Source of the DNA: an uncultured Faecalibacterium sp.
GTDB taxonomy: Bacteria > Bacillota > Clostridia > Oscillospirales > Ruminococcaceae
Length of the DNA stretch: 31,518 bases
Reading direction: 5' to 3'
NCBI GenBank assembly: GCA_900539945.1
Contig: UQDV01000029.1
Coordinates: 1-31,518 of the forward strand
Below the pieces are notes generated by a model. The model searched no databases. It was not told the origin of the DNA and saw nothing but the letters and a program-made list of their open reading frames with translations. Position numbers and translations under genes: made by a program. This document shows, one piece after another, positions 2,698 to 8,523 of this stretch. Position 1 is the stretch's first letter. Every line of letters begins with the position of its first letter.

Positions 2698-3309
2698 ATG
2701 ATGCTATATTACATTCTGCTGCCCTTTGCATGGCTGCTGTGGCACCTTGGCTTCCGCATCCGGGTGGAAGGGCGCGAGAACCTGAAAAAAGTGCAGACCA
2801 AGGGCTATATCCTGGCACCCACCCATGTGTCCGCCATCGACCCGGTGTTCATCGCGGTCACCCGGTGGGGCGGGCGAATGGTCATCTTTGCCAAAAAGGA
2901 ACTGTTTGAGATCAACGCCTTCCTGAGCTGGTTCTTCCGCTGCTGCGGCGGCGTCTGCGTCCGGGGCACCAAGGAGGAAGTGGCGGTCATCGACCGGACC
3001 GTAGAGGCCTGCAAAAACGGACGCACGCTGCTCATCTTCCCGGAAGGCACCCGCGAAAAAGAAGGAAAACTGCTGCCGCCCAAGAGCGGCCTGTTCGTCA
3101 TCGCGGCCGGTGCGGGGGTGGACGTGGTGCCCTGCCGCATCCTGTACGATACCCCGGACGGGAAAATGCACCTGTTCTGCAAGGTGCGGGTGATCTACGG
3201 TGAACCCATGCCCGCCGCGCAGTTTGCCATGGAGGGCCGCCGCGACACGAAAAAACTGCGTGCCAACAAGCAGGCCCTGCTGGATGCGTGGGAGAAGATG
3301 GGACGGTGA
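2698..3309 (+). CDS. plsC: 1-acyl-sn-glycerol-3-phosphate acyltransferase
   Basis: A 203-residue PlsC/LPLAT-family protein that acylates lysophosphatidic acid to phosphatidic acid at the membrane. The catalytic HX4D box is THVSAID (His43, Asp48) and the acceptor-binding block is FPEGTR (114-119). An N-terminal hydrophobic segment (about 3-18) would hold it on the membrane. Two ATG codons are adjacent (2698, 2701); neither has a strong Shine-Dalgarno site, so translation is probably coupled to cmk, whose stop is 7 bases upstream. Its product pathway starts from glycerol-3-phosphate, made by GpsA at 23935-24969. Acyl donor cannot be read from sequence. Confidence 0.93.
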
Positions 3310-3319
3310 GGAGAACGCA

Positions 3320-5230
3320 ATGGAGATCAAAGTTGCAAAGACCGCGGGGTTCTGCTTTGGCGTGAACCGTGCCGTGGAGCTGACCTACGGCCTGCTGGCC
3401 GAAGGGCGCAGGGTGGCCACCCTCGGCCCGCTGATCCACAACCCGCAGGCTGTGGCCGACATGCAGGCAAAGGGGGCCTTTGTGGCCGACAGCGTGCCTC
3501 AGGTGCCGGATGGCTATGAGGTGGTCATCCGCAGCCACGGGGTGCCCCGCAGCGTGTACGACGAGCTGGAGGCGCGCGGCATCGCGTACCACGATGCCAC
3601 CTGCCCCTTTGTGCAGAAGATCCAGCGCATTGCCGCACAGGCCGAAAAAGAGGGTGCCGTGCTGCTGGTGGCGGGCGATAAGACCCACCCTGAGGTGCAG
3701 GGCATCGTGGGGCACACCCGCGGAGAGGTGTTCGTTTTTGCCGATTTGGACGAGCTTGCGGCCTGGAAAGGCCCCTCGGACCCGCAAAAACCCCTTTTTG
3801 CAGTTGCACAGACCACATTTCAGGTGACAAAATGGAAAGAAAGTTCGGAGTTTCTCAAAAAAGCCTATACAAACGCCCGAATTTTTGATACAATATGTAA
3901 TGCGACGTGGGCGAGGCAACAGGAAGCGGAAGACCTCAGCCAACAATGCGACATCATTGTTGTCATTGGCGGTCATCATTCTTCCAATACCCAGAAGCTG
4001 GTACAGGTCGCCGCAAAACACACGCGTGCCGTAACGGTCGAGACAGCGAGCGAACTTCGGCCGGAATGGTTTGCAGATGTAAAAGTGGCGGGCGTGACAG
4101 CCGGGGCTTCAACGCCATCGTCTATTATTGAGGAGGTACTTAACAGTATGAGCGCAGAAATCAATGACAGCATGAGCTTTGAGGAGATGCTGAATGCATC
4201 CGAGGAAAAGCGTGTTCATGCAGGCAGTATTGTGAAAGGAATCGTGACCAGCATCTCTGCCAACGAGATCCAGGTGGATATCGGAGCGAAGCAGACCGGC
4301 TTTGTCAAGCTGAGCGAGCTGACCGATGATTCCTCCGCCAAGGTCGAAGACCTGGTGAAGGTTGGCGATGAGCTGGACCTCATCGTCGAGAAGGTTATGG
4401 ATCAGGACGGCGTCATCCAGCTCTCCCGCAAGAAGCTCGCATCTCGCAAGGGCATGGAAGAGATCGCCAAGGCAGCTGAATCCGGCGAAGTCGTCGAGGG
4501 CGACGTCACCGAGTTCAATAAGGGCGGCGTTGTTGTCAACGTCAAGGGCGTCAAGGTGTTCGTCCCCCGTTCTCAGGCCACTATGCGCCGCGACGAGGAC
4601 TACACCGCTCTGGTTGGCCAGCATGTTCAGCTGGTCGTCACCGAGTGCTCCGGCCGCAAGATCGTCGGCAGCATCAACAAGGTGACCGCTGAGCAGAACA
4701 AGGCAAAGCGCGAGGAGTTCTGGGCAAACGTTGAGGTGGGCAAGAGCTACACCGGCGTTGTCAAGAGCCTGACCTCTTATGGTGCATTCGTTGACATCGG
4801 TGGTGTTGACGGCCTGTGCCACATCAGCGAGCTGAGCTGGAACCGCATCAAGCATCCTTCCGAGGTCGTCTCCGTTGGTGACACCATCGAAGTGTATGTC
4901 AAGGACATCGACACCGAGAACCACAAGGTTTCTCTGGGTTACAAGAAGGCCGAGGACAACCCCTGGGAGCAGCTGAAGAACAACTACCCCATCGGCAGCA
5001 CCTTCCATGCTCCGGTCGTGTCTCTGACCAAGTTCGGTGCTTTCGTCCGCATCCTGCCGGGTGTTGACGGTCTGGTCCACATCAGCGAGATCAGCAATGA
5101 TCGCGTTGAGAAGGTCTCTGACGTGCTGAAGGTCGGCGATATGGTCGATGTGAAGCTGCTGGATGTCGACTTCGACAAGAAGCGCATCAGCCTGTCCATG
5201 AAGGCTCTGCTGAACGACGACGCTGAGTGA
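3320..5230 (+). CDS. ispH: IspH (HMBPP reductase) fused to ribosomal protein S1-like domains
   Basis: One 636-residue frame. Residues 1-276 are IspH, the 4Fe-4S enzyme making IPP and DMAPP from HMBPP in the MEP pathway; cluster cysteines are Cys12 (GFCFGV), Cys95 (ATCPFV) and Cys193 (CNAT), with [10 protein letters not shown] and [12 protein letters not shown] also conserved. Residues 298-630 hold four S1 RNA-binding repeats starting near 298, 390, 473 and 556, like clostridial S1. ATG 3320 follows AGGAG (3309-3313). IspH-S1 fusions are known in clostridia, so the fusion itself is not new. From about 4148 the codons shift to GTT/TCT/GCT-rich usage like that of rpsP and HPr, and a promoter and ribosome site lie inside the frame before this point, suggesting separate S1 production. 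A terminator follows. Confidence 0.95.
3866..3894 (+). promoter_or_regulatory. Candidate internal promoter inside ispH, ahead of the S1 part
   Basis: TATACA (3866-3871), a 17-base spacer, TG at 3886-3887 and TACAAT (3889-3894) make an extended -10 promoter candidate in an AT-rich patch of an otherwise GC-rich gene. It would give a transcript starting near 3901, carrying the S1 half and not a whole IspH. Confidence 0.45.
4131..4150 (+). promoter_or_regulatory. Internal ribosome-binding site and start codon for the S1 half
   Basis: A perfect AGGAGG (4131-4136) lies 11 bases before an in-frame ATG (4148-4150), which is Met277, exactly at the IspH/S1 border. Starting there gives a 360-residue, four-repeat S1 protein, close to the length of free-standing Firmicutes S1-like proteins such as YpfD. 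The codons here also encode the conserved IspH end EEV, so part of the match may be chance. Confidence 0.55.
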
Positions 5231-5272
5231 TCAGCCGCCTGTTTGAAGCATAGCTTCTGACACATGCGATCA

Positions 5273-5315
5273 ACAGCCCCGTTGCCGGGAAAACGGCGGC
5301 GGGGCTGTTTTTGTT
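5273..5315 (+). terminator. Intrinsic terminator after ispH-S1
   Basis: ACAGCCCCG pairs with CGGGGCTGT around a GC-rich loop and is followed by TTTTTGTT. It closes the cmk-plsC-ispH/S1 unit. Confidence 0.85.
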
Positions 5316-5320
5316 AAGGG

Positions 5321-5471
5321 AGAAACCCTCTCAGTCACGGCCTGCGCCGCGACAGCTCTCCCGAAGGGCGAGCTTTTGACAGTGAACGAAAAAGTTTGAG
5401 GAAAACCGGCAAAACCTCTCCCTTTCGGGAGAGGTGGACGCGAACAGCGTGAGCGGACGGAGAGGGTTATT
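5321..5471. repeat. Inverted-repeat element, family A, copy 1 (full)
   Basis: The left end AAACCCTCTCAGTCA and right end GGAGAGGGTTA are inverted copies. Inside are two hairpins, AGCTCTCCC-gaa-GGGCGAGCT (5354-5374) and CCTCTCCC-tttc-GGGAGAGG (5415-5434). The same arrangement recurs at 14887-15019 and, as a half copy, at 20906-20966. The right end GGAGAGGG lies where the ribosome site of the following gtrA-like gene should be. Confidence 0.75.
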
Positions 5472-5475
5472 TTTT

Positions 5476-6081
5476 ATGGTTAAATTTTTCAAAAAGCACT
5501 GGGAAGTGCTCAGTTACCTGATCTTTGGCGTGCTGACCACCCTGCTCAACATCGTGCTGTATGCCCTGTTCAACAAGCTGTTCGGCTACACCGCCGCCAA
5601 CAGCTGGGGCAACGTGCTGGACAACATCCTGTGCATCCTGTTTGCCTACACCACCAACCGGGCGTTCGTGTTCCGCAGCAGGACCCAGGGCCGGGAGATG
5701 GCGAAGGAGTTCGGCGCATTCGTCACCTGCCGTCTGGGCACACTGGTGCTGGATGCCGTCATCATGATGGTGGGCGGCAACCTGCTGGCCGCGCAGGGCA
5801 CAGCTCTGATGGAAGGCCTGATGCAGGGCGTGCTGGGGGCTGTGGCGGGCTGGATCGATCCGGCCACAGCGGTAAGCACGATCAACACCTACGCAGGAGG
5901 CGCTGATCATTCTGCTGCCATCGCCATCATCGGTGGTGCCGATGGCCCGACGGCGATCTTCGTCAGCGGTTACAGCGCACAGACTTTGTGGGGCTTATGC
6001 GTCAAGGTCTTTTCCAACGTGGTCGTGGTGGTGCTGAACTATGTGTTCAGCAAACTCATCATCTTTAAAAAGAAAAAATAA
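5476..6081 (+). CDS. GtrA-like membrane protein with an embedded IGGADGPT motif
   Basis: A 201-residue multi-pass membrane protein. The N-terminal half (YLIFGVLTTLLNIVLYALF, then AYTTNRAFVFRS) and the last segment (VLNYVFSKLIIFKK) match GtrA/DPMS-type proteins, four-helix membrane proteins linked to polyprenyl-sugar translocation. Probable helices are at about 10-30, 37-57, 77-98 and 172-195. GtrA proteins are usually 120-150 residues; the excess lies between helices 3 and 4 (about 100-170), where IAIIGGADGPTAIFVSG (149-165) is almost the reentrant-loop signature of the beta subunit of sodium-pumping decarboxylases (OadB/GcdB), including its key Asp (Asp156). ATG 5476 is preceded only by GGAGAGGG from the repeat end. 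Function is unknown; the GtrA call is firm for fold, not for role. Confidence 0.8.
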   Translation: MVKFFKKHWEVLSYLIFGVLTTLLNIVLYALFNKLFGYTAANSWGNVLDNILCILFAYTTNRAFVFRSRTQGREMAKEFGAFVTCRLGTLVLDAVIMMVGGNLLAAQGTALMEGLMQGVLGAVAGWIDPATAVSTINTYAGGADHSAAIAIIGGADGPTAIFVSGYSAQTLWGLCVKVFSNVVVVVLNYVFSKLIIFKKKK

Positions 6082-6102
6082 TTTTTTAGGAGGTACGGTC
6101 TT

Positions 6103-6240
6103 ATGAAACGTGGTCTGAAAGGTTTTGCATTCCTGGTCTCCGGTCTGGTGCTGGGCATCATCGGTGCAACGGTGTCGGCAACGGCCATTGCCCTGAGCGC
6201 TGTCGGCATGGCAAAGGTGCGCCGTGCCAACAAGAATTAA
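6103..6240 (+). CDS. 45-residue hydrophobic membrane peptide
   Basis: A short gene with a strong AGGAGG 7 bases before its ATG, 21 bases after the gtrA-like stop; its TAA is part of the TAAGGAGG that serves deoC. The product begins MKRGLKGFAFLV, has about 30 hydrophobic residues rich in Gly, Ala, Ser and Val (roughly 8-36), and ends in basic KVRRANKN, so it is probably one membrane span with charged ends. Not recognised as a known family. The tight spacing and good ribosome site argue for a real gene, cotranscribed with its neighbours; it may be a partner of the GtrA-like protein. Confidence 0.65.
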   Translation: MKRGLKGFAFLVSGLVLGIIGATVSATAIALSAVGMAKVRRANKN

Positions 6241-6253
6241 GGAGGACGACAAC

Positions 6254-6919
6254 ATGACCCGCGAAGAAATTCTCTCCCATGTCGATCACACCCTGCTGAA
6301 GCCGGAGGCCACCTGGCCCCAGATCCAGACCCTGTGTGACGAAGCCATTGCCAACCACACCGCATCCGTCTGCATCAACACCTGCTACGTCAAGCAGGCT
6401 GTGGAGTACATGGCAGGCCGCATCCCGGTGTGCTGCGTGGTGGGCTTCCCTCTGGGTGCCATGGACACCGCCAGCAAGGCCTTTGAGGCAAAGACTGCCA
6501 TCGAAAACGGCGCTTCCGAGGTGGACATGGTCATCAACATCGGCCGCCTGAAGAATAAGGAGTACGATGCCGTCCGCGAGGACATCCGTGCCGTGAAGCA
6601 GGCTGTGGGCGACAAGATCCTGAAGGTCATCATCGAGACCTGCCTGCTGACCGATGAGGAAAAGGAAACGATGTGCGACATCGTCTGCGAGGCAGGCGCG
6701 GACTACATCAAGACCAGCACCGGCTTCTCCACCGCAGGTGCCAACTTCCACGATGTGGAACTGATGGTCAAGGGTGTGCACGGCCGCTGCAAGGTCAAGG
6801 CTGCCGGCGGCATCTCCACGGTGGAGGACATGGAGACCTTCCTGGCTCTGGGCGCTGACCGCCTGGGCACCTCCCGCGCCGTCAAGATCCTGAACGGCGA
6901 GCAGGCCAAGGGCTATTGA
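6254..6919 (+). CDS. deoC: Deoxyribose-phosphate aldolase
   Basis: A 221-residue class I aldolase that splits 2-deoxyribose-5-phosphate into glyceraldehyde-3-phosphate and acetaldehyde in deoxynucleoside breakdown. The Schiff-base lysine is Lys153 in YIKTSTGF; Asp91 (EVDMVINIG) and Lys182 (KVKAAGGI) complete the catalytic set. The ATG at 6254 follows GGAGG (6241-6245) by 8 bases; a longer frame start at 6224 lies inside the previous small gene. It ends the gtrA-like/small peptide/deoC group and a terminator follows 12 bases on. No other deo gene is present in the window. Confidence 0.96.
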   Translation: MTREEILSHVDHTLLKPEATWPQIQTLCDEAIANHTASVCINTCYVKQAVEYMAGRIPVCCVVGFPLGAMDTASKAFEAKTAIENGASEVDMVINIGRLKNKEYDAVREDIRAVKQAVGDKILKVIIETCLLTDEEKETMCDIVCEAGADYIKTSTGFSTAGANFHDVELMVKGVHGRCKVKAAGGISTVEDMETFLALGADRLGTSRAVKILNGEQAKGY

Positions 6920-6931
6920 TCCGATCCTGCA

Positions 6932-6967
6932 AGAAAGGCGCAGCTGAGGCTGTGCCTTTCTTTTTTG
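6932..6967 (+). terminator. Intrinsic terminator after deoC
   Basis: AGAAAGGCGCAGC pairs with GCTGTGCCTTTCT (one mismatch) around TGAG and is followed by T6. Confidence 0.88.
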
Positions 6968-7037
6968 TATTTGCAGCAGAAAACCGACAAAACCTCCATC
7001 AATTTCAGAGAGTTGTATAAAAAGAGTGATACTCTTC

Positions 7038-7066
7038 TTGACAATCTGACGAAGCAATGATAGAAT
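7038..7066 (+). promoter_or_regulatory. metK promoter
   Basis: A consensus TTGACA (7038-7043), 17-base spacer and TAGAAT (7061-7066), placed about 25 bases before the riboswitch, so the whole aptamer would be in the leader. Confidence 0.85.
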
Positions 7067-7090
7067 ACTGAACGTAACAACTGAATACCG

Positions 7091-7187
7091 ACTTATCAAG
7101 AGCGGCTGAGGGGACAGGCCCTGTGAAGCCCGACAACCTGTGCGAAAGCATAAGGTGCCAAATCCTGCGGGAAACCGGAAGATAAGA
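7091..7187 (+). ncRNA. SAM-I (S-box) riboswitch aptamer controlling metK
   Basis: The leader shows the S-box pattern: P1 strands CTTATC (7092-7097) and GATAAG (7181-7186); the conserved AAGAGCGGCTGAGGG; GAAGCCCGACAACC; and AAGGTGCCAAATCC. Family knowledge: SAM binding stabilises P1 and favours a downstream terminator, switching off SAM-synthesis genes. A terminator at 7193-7230 lies directly after it, before metK, which fits transcription-level OFF control. The competing anti-terminator pairing was not worked out. Confidence 0.95.
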
Positions 7188-7192
7188 GTGCA

Positions 7193-7230
7193 ACGCTCAG
7201 AGCTTTCGGCTCTGGGCGCTTTTATTTTTT
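7193..7230 (+). terminator. Riboswitch-controlled terminator before metK
   Basis: CGCTCAGAGC-tttc-GGCTCTGGGCG followed by CTTTTATTTTTT, starting 7 bases after P1 of the SAM-I aptamer. It is the expression platform. The remaining 78 bases to the start codon show no other clear structure. Confidence 0.9.
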
Positions 7231-7308
7231 CATGGTACATGGCTTGATGAATGGTAGAAGCTGCAAGATACACACCCTGTTGTAAAAACTGTTTAGGAGG
7301 CAAAACCA

Positions 7309-8463
7309 ATGGCAAGACACCTGTTTACTTCTGAGTCCGTCACCGAAGGACATCCCGACAAGATCTGCGACCAGATCTCGGATGCGATCCTGGACGAGAT
7401 CCTGACCCACGACCCCGACGCCCGCGTGGCCTGCGAGACCTGTGCATCCACCGGTCTGGTGCACATCATGGGCGAGATCACCACCAGCTGCTATGTGGAC
7501 TTCCAGAAGGTGGTCCGTGAGGTGGTGGCAGATATTGGCTACACCCGTGCAAAGTTCGGCTTTGACGCCGACACCTGCGCCGTCATCTCCAACATCGACG
7601 GCCAGAGCCCCGACATCGCCCTGGGCACCAACGACCAGGTGGGCGGTGCCGGCGACCAGGGCATGATGTTCGGTTATGCCTGCGACGAGACCCCGGAGCT
7701 GATGCCCATGCCCATCAGCCTGGCCCACAAGCTGGCCAAGCGCCTGACCGAGGTGCGCAAGAGCGGCGAGATGAGCTATCTGCGCCCGGACGGCAAGAGC
7801 CAGGTCACCGTGGAGTACGACGAGAACAACAAGCCCGTGCGTGTGGACGCCGTGGTCATCTCCAGCCAGCACAGCGAGAGCGTGAGCATGGACCAGCTGC
7901 GTGCCGACGTGATGGAAAAGGTCATCAAGGCCACCATCCCCGCCGAGCTGCTGGACGAGAACACCAAGTACTATATCAACCCCACCGGCCGCTTTGTGGT
8001 CGGCGGCCCCCAGGGCGACACCGGCCTGACCGGCCGTAAGATCATCGTGGACACCTACGGCGGCTACGCACGTCACGGCGGCGGCGCATTCTCCGGCAAG
8101 GATCCCAGCAAGGTGGACCGCAGCGCTGCCTATGCGACCCGCTGGGTGGCCAAGAACATCGTGGCTGCCGGCCTGGCCAAGCAGTGCGAGGTGCAGGTGG
8201 CTTACGCCATCGGCGTGGCAAAGCCCGTGTCCATCATGGTGGACACCTTCGGCACCGGCACGGTCTCCGATGAGAAGATCGAGCAGGCTGTGGAGAAGGT
8301 CTTTGACCTGACCCCCGCTGCCATTATCCGTGACCTCGACCTGCGCAAGCCCATCTACCGCAAGCTGGCTGCCTACGGTCACATGGGCCGCGAGGACCTG
8401 GGCGTGAAGTGGGAGAACACCGACCGCGTGGATGCCCTGAAGGCTGCCGTGGCTGCTCTGTAA
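7309..8463 (+). CDS. metK: S-adenosylmethionine synthetase
   Basis: A 384-residue methionine adenosyltransferase making SAM from methionine and ATP in the cytoplasm. Visible signatures are [16 protein letters not shown] near the N-terminus, [12 protein letters not shown] (the family hexapeptide region) and [19 protein letters not shown], the phosphate-binding loop. Length is normal. AGGAGG (7295-7300) lies 8 bases before ATG 7309. It is a single-gene unit with its own promoter, SAM-I riboswitch and terminator, so its product should repress its own transcription. SAM made here is the methyl donor of TrmD. Confidence 0.98.
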
Positions 8464-8483
8464 AGAAGAACCGGTAAATGAAG

Positions 8484-8523
8484 AAAAAGGCTCCTCTGCC
8501 GACCGGCAGAGGGGCCTTTTTGC
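8484..8523 (+). terminator. Intrinsic terminator after metK
   Basis: AAGGCTCCTCTGCCG pairs with CGGCAGAGGGGCCTT over a two-base loop, followed by TTT. Confidence 0.88.

Follow-up and report, generated by a model that had tools for sequence, protein, structure and literature searches.

A short peptide resembling a sodium-pump hairpin tip recurs in a GtrA-family protein of Faecalibacterium and in many unrelated proteins of Clostridia

Introduction

Several short peptides act as sorting or processing signals at the membrane surface, among them LPXTG, GlyGly-CTERM, PEP-CTERM and the Bacteroidota lipoprotein export signal. In the LPXTG-type cell-wall sorting signal, the sorting motif, a helix and a positive tail are located at the C-terminus of the protein. 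Short in-frame inserts in unrelated genes are also known as DNA elements, i.e., the Rickettsia palindromic elements. Portable signals of the membrane surface are therefore familiar; we know of none that equals the ion-site hairpin of a transporter.

The transporter concerned is the beta subunit of the decarboxylase sodium pumps (OadB, MmdB and GcdB; PF03977, TIGR01109). According to a structural study (eLife 2020, PMC7274780), the tip of its re-entrant hairpin H1, with Asp203, forms part of the sodium site, and the hairpin H2 with Ser382, plus Asn412, completes the sodium sites. Here, we analysed a window of 31,518 nucleotides, the whole of a stretch of DNA from an uncultured Faecalibacterium sp. 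(contig UQDV01000029.1), in which an earlier note, made from the letters alone, had pointed out a GtrA-like membrane protein with the IGGADGPT loop of these pumps. We compared this protein with its orthologues and with other proteins that carry the same peptide ('carriers', with the peptide as a 'graft'). A search of the open-licence literature, the only kind covered, found no description of such grafts.

Results

A GtrA-family protein with an inserted peptide

The features of the open reading frame are listed in Table 1. Its product matches GtrA_DPMS_TM (PF04138) in two stretches (E = 2.8e-13; 50.5 bits against a curated cut-off of 26.1), and hence belongs by score to this family of four-helix membrane proteins. 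Outside the motif, the protein aligns with GtrA proteins that lack it. The GtrA-like ends described earlier are thus confirmed by both profile and alignment, whereas an insert of about 55 residues between helices 3 and 4 sets the protein apart from the ordinary GtrA/DPMS domain.

Table 1. Positions of the GtrA-family gene and its parts in the window.
Feature	Position	Strand	Details	Basis
GtrA-family membrane protein with grafted peptide	5476..6081	+	201 aa; stop codon 6079-6081	ORF, Pfam, alignment
GtrA helices 1-3 (residues 10-109)	5503..5802	+	PF04138 best stretch 14-109; aligned in 45/45 orthologues	
Insert between helices 3 and 4 (about residues 112-167)	5809..5976	+	Approximate boundaries	Alignment
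Grafted peptide SAAIAIIGGADGPTAIFVSG (residues 146-165)	5911..5970	+	Resembles H1 hairpin tip of sodium-pump beta subunits	
GtrA helix 4 and Lys-rich tail, probably cytoplasmic	5977..6078	+		Alignment; topology inferred from charges

Within the insert, residues 149-165 read IAIIGGADGPTAIFVSG, in which the Asp of IGGADGPT is D156. The same product matches the OAD_beta profile (PF03977) with E = 2.9e-6 and 27 bits, below the cut-off of 31.6. This match aligns residues 140-185 with profile positions 106-152 of 349, and the protein is not a member of OAD_beta by score over most of these positions. The matched part is the H1 tip, with D156 as the equivalent of the sodium-site Asp203 of the structural study, and the resemblance to the OadB ion-site loop noticed earlier, including its Asp, is therefore genuine. 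No match was found to the other half of the sodium site, i.e., the H2 tip (Ser382) and Asn412 as given in that study; the profile match covers positions 106-152 only. NCBIfam models of the beta subunit gave only weak matches to this part, with scores well short of their cut-offs. Hence, the graft shares about 18 H1-tip residues with OadB, MmdB and GcdB, including the Asp, and by charge the extracytoplasmic side of the next helix; in contrast, the rest of the transporter is unmatched and the grafts sit in other folds.

The insert of the GtrA protein should lie outside the cytoplasm, because the N-terminus, the loop between helices 2 and 3 and the C-terminus are rich in Lys, in Arg and Lys, and in Lys, respectively. 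An AlphaFold model of the protein was poor (mean pLDDT 62.3, pTM 0.45). It represents the peptide as a low-confidence beta-hairpin (strands 149-154 and 157-163, pLDDT about 50-57). In the model of a soluble carrier, the peptide is placed within a C-terminal linker (residues 256-296) with a pLDDT below 50. Such low-confidence models would be more in keeping with a linear motif than with a domain, and carry no weight as to membrane entry. No glycosyltransferase was recognised by eye among the open reading frames at 3500-8500 of the window.

GtrA orthologues with and without the peptide

Scanning genomes for GtrA yielded 17 loci, all in Faecalibacterium or Fournierella. The grafted peptide is present at loci L001-L005 and L014. 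The same GtrA protein lacks it at L006-L013, L015 and L017, several of which come, to judge by their titles, from poultry or rumen, and L016 is a GtrA fragment at a contig end. Looking for the insert in other GtrA homologues, as the earlier note had advised, revealed the motif in 36 of the 45 aligned proteins; the remaining nine are orthologues from Faecalibacterium and Fournierella. Neither of two refuting conditions named in the note, an ordinary GtrA loop or a lack of conservation in relatives, holds up. Compared with the orthologues that have the shortest loops, the extra block comprises 55 (L012, L013) or 58 residues (L015), so that the insert noticed earlier is real and its proposed size of 60-70 residues was an overestimate. 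The extra block is 43 residues relative to L006, L009 and L017, and 24-26 residues relative to L008, L010 and L011, whose own longer loops carry no motif.

The linker part of the insert is hypervariable and nearly unalignable; for instance, P0069, P0077 and P0098 have quite different linkers. Despite this variation, the peptide keeps its place and is almost frozen among the motif-bearing orthologues. Seven orthologous genes, found without using the motif, were compared pairwise at the codon level. The 18 codons of the peptide showed 6 nonsynonymous against 149 synonymous differences in 378 codon pairs. By comparison, there were 288 nonsynonymous and 476 synonymous differences in 2205 codon pairs of the GtrA core, and 63 and 119, respectively, in 556 codon pairs of the tail. 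These counts imply that conservation is higher in the peptide than in the surrounding GtrA domain, and that in GtrA the peptide is under strong selection at the amino-acid level. The idea that the peptide is a functionless relic was rejected on the basis of the same test.

Sequence and edges of the peptide

The consensus of about 18 residues is S-[IV]-[GA]-[IV]-I-G-G-A-D-G-P-T-[AS]-[IV]-[FY]-[VIL]-[ST]-[GS]. In 83 distinct graft windows, from which five chance-frame loci had been dropped (L079, L125, L128, L129, L135), conservation extends from position -5 to about +12 and ends there, whereas OadB continues with LAPxLLG. Outside GtrA, the invariance of the core is partly built in, because the carriers were found by the motif. 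Positions -1 and +8 lie outside the GGADGPT search pattern; in 44 graft windows of the family sample, these positions are I in 44/44 and I or V in 43/44, respectively. Profile searches that did not demand the exact core returned the variant tips GGSD, GAAD, GSAD and perhaps GETD, and DGPT was retained in all of these among the matches listed.

Pumps included, matches to back-translated GGADGPT occurred in 235 of the 297 genomes of the family, and a reversed-pattern control gave a total of 9 matches, so the peptide recurs beyond chance. Similarly, IGGADGPT matched in 206 of the 291 genomes of the class (reversed-pattern control: 0 matches), again with pumps included. All eight Faecalibacterium and Fournierella genomes that were searched contain IGGADGPT, in pumps and also in an SGNH-like secreted protein, PlsY and a soluble protein.

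Unrelated proteins carry the same peptide

Many two-helix miniproteins and a range of further proteins carry the peptide, which bears out the earlier note's mention of the motif in further small membrane proteins of clostridia. Besides GtrA, the carriers include PlsY, with the peptide at the N-terminus; PgsA-like CDP-alcohol phosphatidyltransferases (P0128, P0130, P0135); HAAS and XRE-TM/helix-turn-helix proteins, in which two helices flank the peptide; BlaR1-like M56 peptidases with M23 domains; OadG-like subunits; lipoproteins with rhodanese-like, Big_14 or RNase N1 domains; an SLH-like protein (L326); C-terminally anchored proteins; an SGNH-like secreted protein; and some soluble proteins. 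The labels SGNH, SLH, rhodanese and OadG, as well as PlsY at genome loci, are readings of the sequence. In the carriers tested with Pfam, HTH_3, M56, M23 and Big_14 scored above the cut-off and HAAS below it. Database entries of carriers list PF01066, PF02660, PF00545, PF20251 and PF22564 among the matches listed.

When the motif region of an XRE carrier was searched against the database, 15 proteins matched; that of a miniprotein gave the best 120 of 170, and the list of miniproteins derives from this single query. The genomes from which loci were taken were mostly those with at least two pattern matches, and the carrier counts are not random samples. One locus (L312) showed no motif on translation. 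Two short proteins, P0187 (96 aa, Wukongibacter) and P0216 (94 aa), carry public annotations as decarboxylase beta subunits; the peptide is the apparent reason, which would explain such labels on small unrelated proteins. By eye, no common operon was seen in the neighbourhoods of 22 plus four carrier loci.

Some carriers contain more than one copy, with three copies in tandem in L309, two in L104 and two in P0143. L309 (G505:C2:173900-175700) is a membrane-anchored miniprotein in which the three peptides are joined by Lys/Asp-rich linkers, resembling a multivalent display or precursor array.

Soluble-looking carriers fall into two size groups. The larger proteins form a family of about 340-535 residues (L020, L026, L032, L087, L090, L093, L104, L122, L134, L179, L195, L322), in which IGGADGPT is the longest invariant stretch, an invariance that is partly built in since the members were found by the motif. 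One member gave no Pfam match at a threshold of 0.01, and a model of the family gave no Foldseek match in the PDB at E = 0.001 or better. In genome G004, the gene of this family adjoins apparent mobilisation genes (L273). The smaller proteins (L130, L131, L132 and L133 from IMG/VR, and L193) are about 220 residues long and carry the peptide close to the N-terminus, surrounded by Lys, and four of these five loci lie on contigs of viral collections. The 11 IMG/VR contigs with a match comprise four chance frames (L125, L128, L129, L135) and seven plausible carriers, the latter including two pairs with identical sequence. A tblastn search of phage and plasmid collections with a 21-residue consensus gave no match.

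Placement relative to the membrane

Placement of the peptide was studied in 247 carrier records (112 from loci and 135 from the database, among the matches listed). Of these records, 13 were left out as presumed pump fragments, picked by pump-like words; L131 and L132 were wrongly among them. Removal of relatives gave 148 non-redundant carriers, 128 of which have a hydrophobic segment (among the matches listed). Topology was assigned by simple hydropathy and by the number of Lys and Arg on either side of the neighbouring helix, with the first Met taken as the start.

The median distance from the peptide to the hydrophobic segment was 7 residues in these 128 carriers, among the matches listed. 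By the Lys/Arg count, the peptide was placed outside in 118 of the 124 anchored non-redundant carriers and inside in one (L052), with five ties (among the matches listed). In carriers of at least 150 aa with a hydrophobic segment, the peptide was 10 residues or less away in 39 of 45 cases, against 11.7 expected at random (among the matches listed). Keeping the pump fragments changed these numbers little (outside in 122/128; 10 residues or less in 39/46 against 12.3 expected, likewise among the matches listed). Hydrophobic segments were missing in 20 of the 148 carriers among the matches listed, a few of which are lipoproteins missed by the rule.

Of 36 lipobox-like carriers, 34 have a spacing of 9-11 residues between the lipobox Cys and the GGAD that follows it (among the matches listed); the exceptions are L341, with 7 residues after the Cys, and L342, with the peptide in mid-protein. 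The database lists account for 20 of these 34 carriers, whose flanks are mostly similar, and genome loci for the other 14 (L142, L167, L199, L310, L311, L313-L316, L319-L321, L323, L324). The peptide is near the mature N-terminus in secreted carriers (e.g., L018, L126), near the C-terminus in the soluble family, before C-terminal anchors in L182 and L317, and in mid-protein in L326 as well as L342. Judged by these rules, the peptide of anchored carriers is outside the cytoplasm and close to the membrane.

In OadB, the motif and a Lys/Arg-rich loop lie at opposite ends of one helix, and H1 of OadB should therefore also enter from outside. The same orientation of H1 was reportedly reached in older topology work on the beta subunit of Klebsiella.

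Co-occurrence with decarboxylase sodium pumps

Grafts occur in at least 49 of the 291 genomes of the class sample. This number comprises 22 genomes by translated loci, G001 with GtrA, a further 19 (17 translated), four with variant tips (G352, G409, G412, G519) and three others; in G449 and G493 the graft was recognised by a profile match alone. Of the 215 genomes in which a beta subunit matched strongly (E = 8.9e-73 or better), at least 47 have grafts, against 2 of the 76 that lack such a match (Fisher p = 2.6e-5, kinship ignored; mainly genomes with two or more pattern matches were examined for grafts, and genomes may be incomplete). No beta subunit was found in the graft-bearing genomes G036 (with two grafts), G371 and G519.

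A paralogous pump tip, GAADGPT, matched in 97 of the 291 genomes of the class. All 36 GAAD loci that were translated (L236-L271) read as pump subunits, eight of them missed by label and judged to be pumps by reading. Among the first 30 loci of each search, six were grafts for GGAD and none for GAAD (p = 0.024). There was a single case of a GAAD graft (L225), in genome G409, which has a GAAD pump only. This carrier is homologous to a GGAD carrier (L185, in G432), with 51% identity over 89 residues including the motif. A strict partnership of the grafts with GGAD-type OadB had seemed to be supported by pump-type matching in the class (table 44/0/0/2, p = 0.00097). We withdrew this claim because G006 and G116 showed only a GAAD-type pump, yet carry GGAD grafts.

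Over 65 grafts, graft variants matched the resident OadB better than shuffled pairs did (0 of 2000 shuffles reached the observed match). Without Faecalibacterium, 213 of the 2000 shuffles equalled the match, and the overall result is thus due to this genus (AAIA..AIFVTSR).

Discussion

Comparison of the carriers establishes that the peptide is a defined unit, reused in many proteins, selected in GtrA and, by the placement rules, predicted at the outer side of the membrane. One conserved peptide at a narrow membrane distance in otherwise unrelated proteins would imply a common envelope process in abundant anaerobes. We tentatively favour the reading that it is a portable docking or recognition tag at the outer surface of the membrane, with the same sequence as the H1 tip of GGAD-type OadB. 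A module of about 18 residues would have been added to the GtrA loop between helices 3 and 4, outside by charge, where it may be read by a partner at the outer membrane surface. GtrA would then be a carrier like many others and could well be active independently of the peptide. In favour of a tag are the unrelatedness of the carriers, the selection on the peptide, its defined edges, its narrow placement, the multivalent copies, the specificity for GGAD and the association of grafts with pump-bearing genomes. The suggestion of the earlier note that the motif could be a general-purpose membrane hairpin survives in the form of a membrane-associated module. The tag reading is weakened by carriers that look soluble, by the loose partnership with GGAD-type OadB, by the fit of graft variants to the resident OadB, which is lost without Faecalibacterium, by the partly built-in invariance of the core outside GtrA and by the lack of a common operon in the carriers' neighbourhoods, as described above; moreover, hydrophobic re-entrant behaviour alone could explain the proximity to the membrane.

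A broader form of the same reading, to which we give rather less credence, is an address tag of Clostridia as a whole, in which the hairpin tip of the pump is reused in dozens of proteins and one reader meets the pump or is mimicked by it. If true, Clostridia would possess an address tag at their outer surface that serves lipoproteins, regulators, enzymes of lipid synthesis and miniproteins. The motif-free GtrA orthologues allow a natural comparison of proteins that have the peptide and proteins that lack it, and lipoproteins could serve as simple baits in a search for the reader.

The graft resembles the known membrane-surface signals in that unrelated proteins share a short peptide whose distance from a membrane anchor varies little. 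It differs from them in its sequence, in its internal, N-terminal or C-terminal position, and in being the tip of a transporter hairpin. The LPXTG-type layout does not apply to the GtrA protein, since its insert is internal and its sequence differs; a motif followed by a helix and a positive tail is present in P0242 and L182.

Hydrophobicity could also act on its own: the peptide may be an autonomous hairpin that folds like H1 of OadB and dips from outside into the outer leaflet, as an anchor or to perturb lipids, with no reader involved. A membrane hairpin was also among the suggestions of the earlier note. Its proximity to the membrane on the outer side, its hydrophobic arms around a GGADGP turn and its sidedness, which agrees with that of OadB as judged by the single helix between the motif and the Lys/Arg-rich loop, would all fit. 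However, the retention of D-G-P-T in the variant tips listed and the near absence of the equally hydrophobic GAAD tip among the grafts examined exceed what lipid insertion needs, and soluble carriers exist. The AlphaFold beta-hairpin in GtrA and the disorder predicted in the soluble carrier, both of them weak, also speak against it. On balance, we consider an autonomous hairpin, the main rival of the tag, rather unlikely.

The narrow distance after lipoboxes, the adjoining membrane helices and the location near the mature N-terminus of secreted L018 and L126 could point instead to a signal at the level of export or translation, such as ribosome pausing or control of signal-peptide processing or insertion. 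We regard this as distinctly unlikely, given that the peptide is near the C-terminus in the soluble family, precedes C-terminal anchors (L182, L317) and occurs in mid-protein (L326, L342).

Another improbable explanation is that the displayed peptide serves as a decoy or in immunity, by mimicking an epitope of the pump to which a bacteriocin, toxin or phage binds. Seemingly any protein can be a carrier, display is outside, L309 looks like a multivalent array and graft genomes usually have a pump, all of which would fit a decoy. Conversely, there are soluble carriers, and no defence neighbourhood was seen by eye in the 22 plus four loci. We know of no agent that binds the hairpin tip of the pump.

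An in-frame mobile DNA element that inserts into genes and is tolerated would account for the patchy occurrence in many genes and for the tandem copies (L309, L104, P0143), and would recall the Rickettsia palindromic elements, which share the short in-frame insertion. Unlike what is expected of a mobile repeat, the copies are not alike at the DNA level (149 synonymous differences in 378 codon pairs), and same-genome copies differ at silent sites; the graft is conserved as a peptide with silent sites free. The codon data largely refute this explanation, which is now very improbable.

Finally, the cation-coupled or cation-gated flippase proposed in the earlier note, for which the Asp-bearing loop of the sodium site (as described in PMC7274780) would speak, is barely credible: the H2 half is unmatched, orthologues do without the motif, variation of the linker is unrestrained, and lipoproteins, secreted proteins and soluble proteins, in which ion coupling would be meaningless, contain the peptide too.

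Other features near the gene

Immediately upstream of gtrA, positions 5416-5468 of the window contain a hairpin-like sequence. Part of it, CTCTCCCTTTCGGGAGAGGTG, has exact matches only at L004 and L028 of the 342 loci, both of which are the gtrA locus of G003, and no second copy of the part at 5451-5468 was found within the window. Between gtrA and deoC, positions 6103-6240 hold a small open reading frame (45 codons; MKRGLKGFAFLVSGLVLG...), which encodes a single hydrophobic stretch. Further upstream of gtrA, at 3200-5230, a single open reading frame, named by reading the sequence alone, apparently joins IspH (LytB) to ribosomal S1-type repeats.
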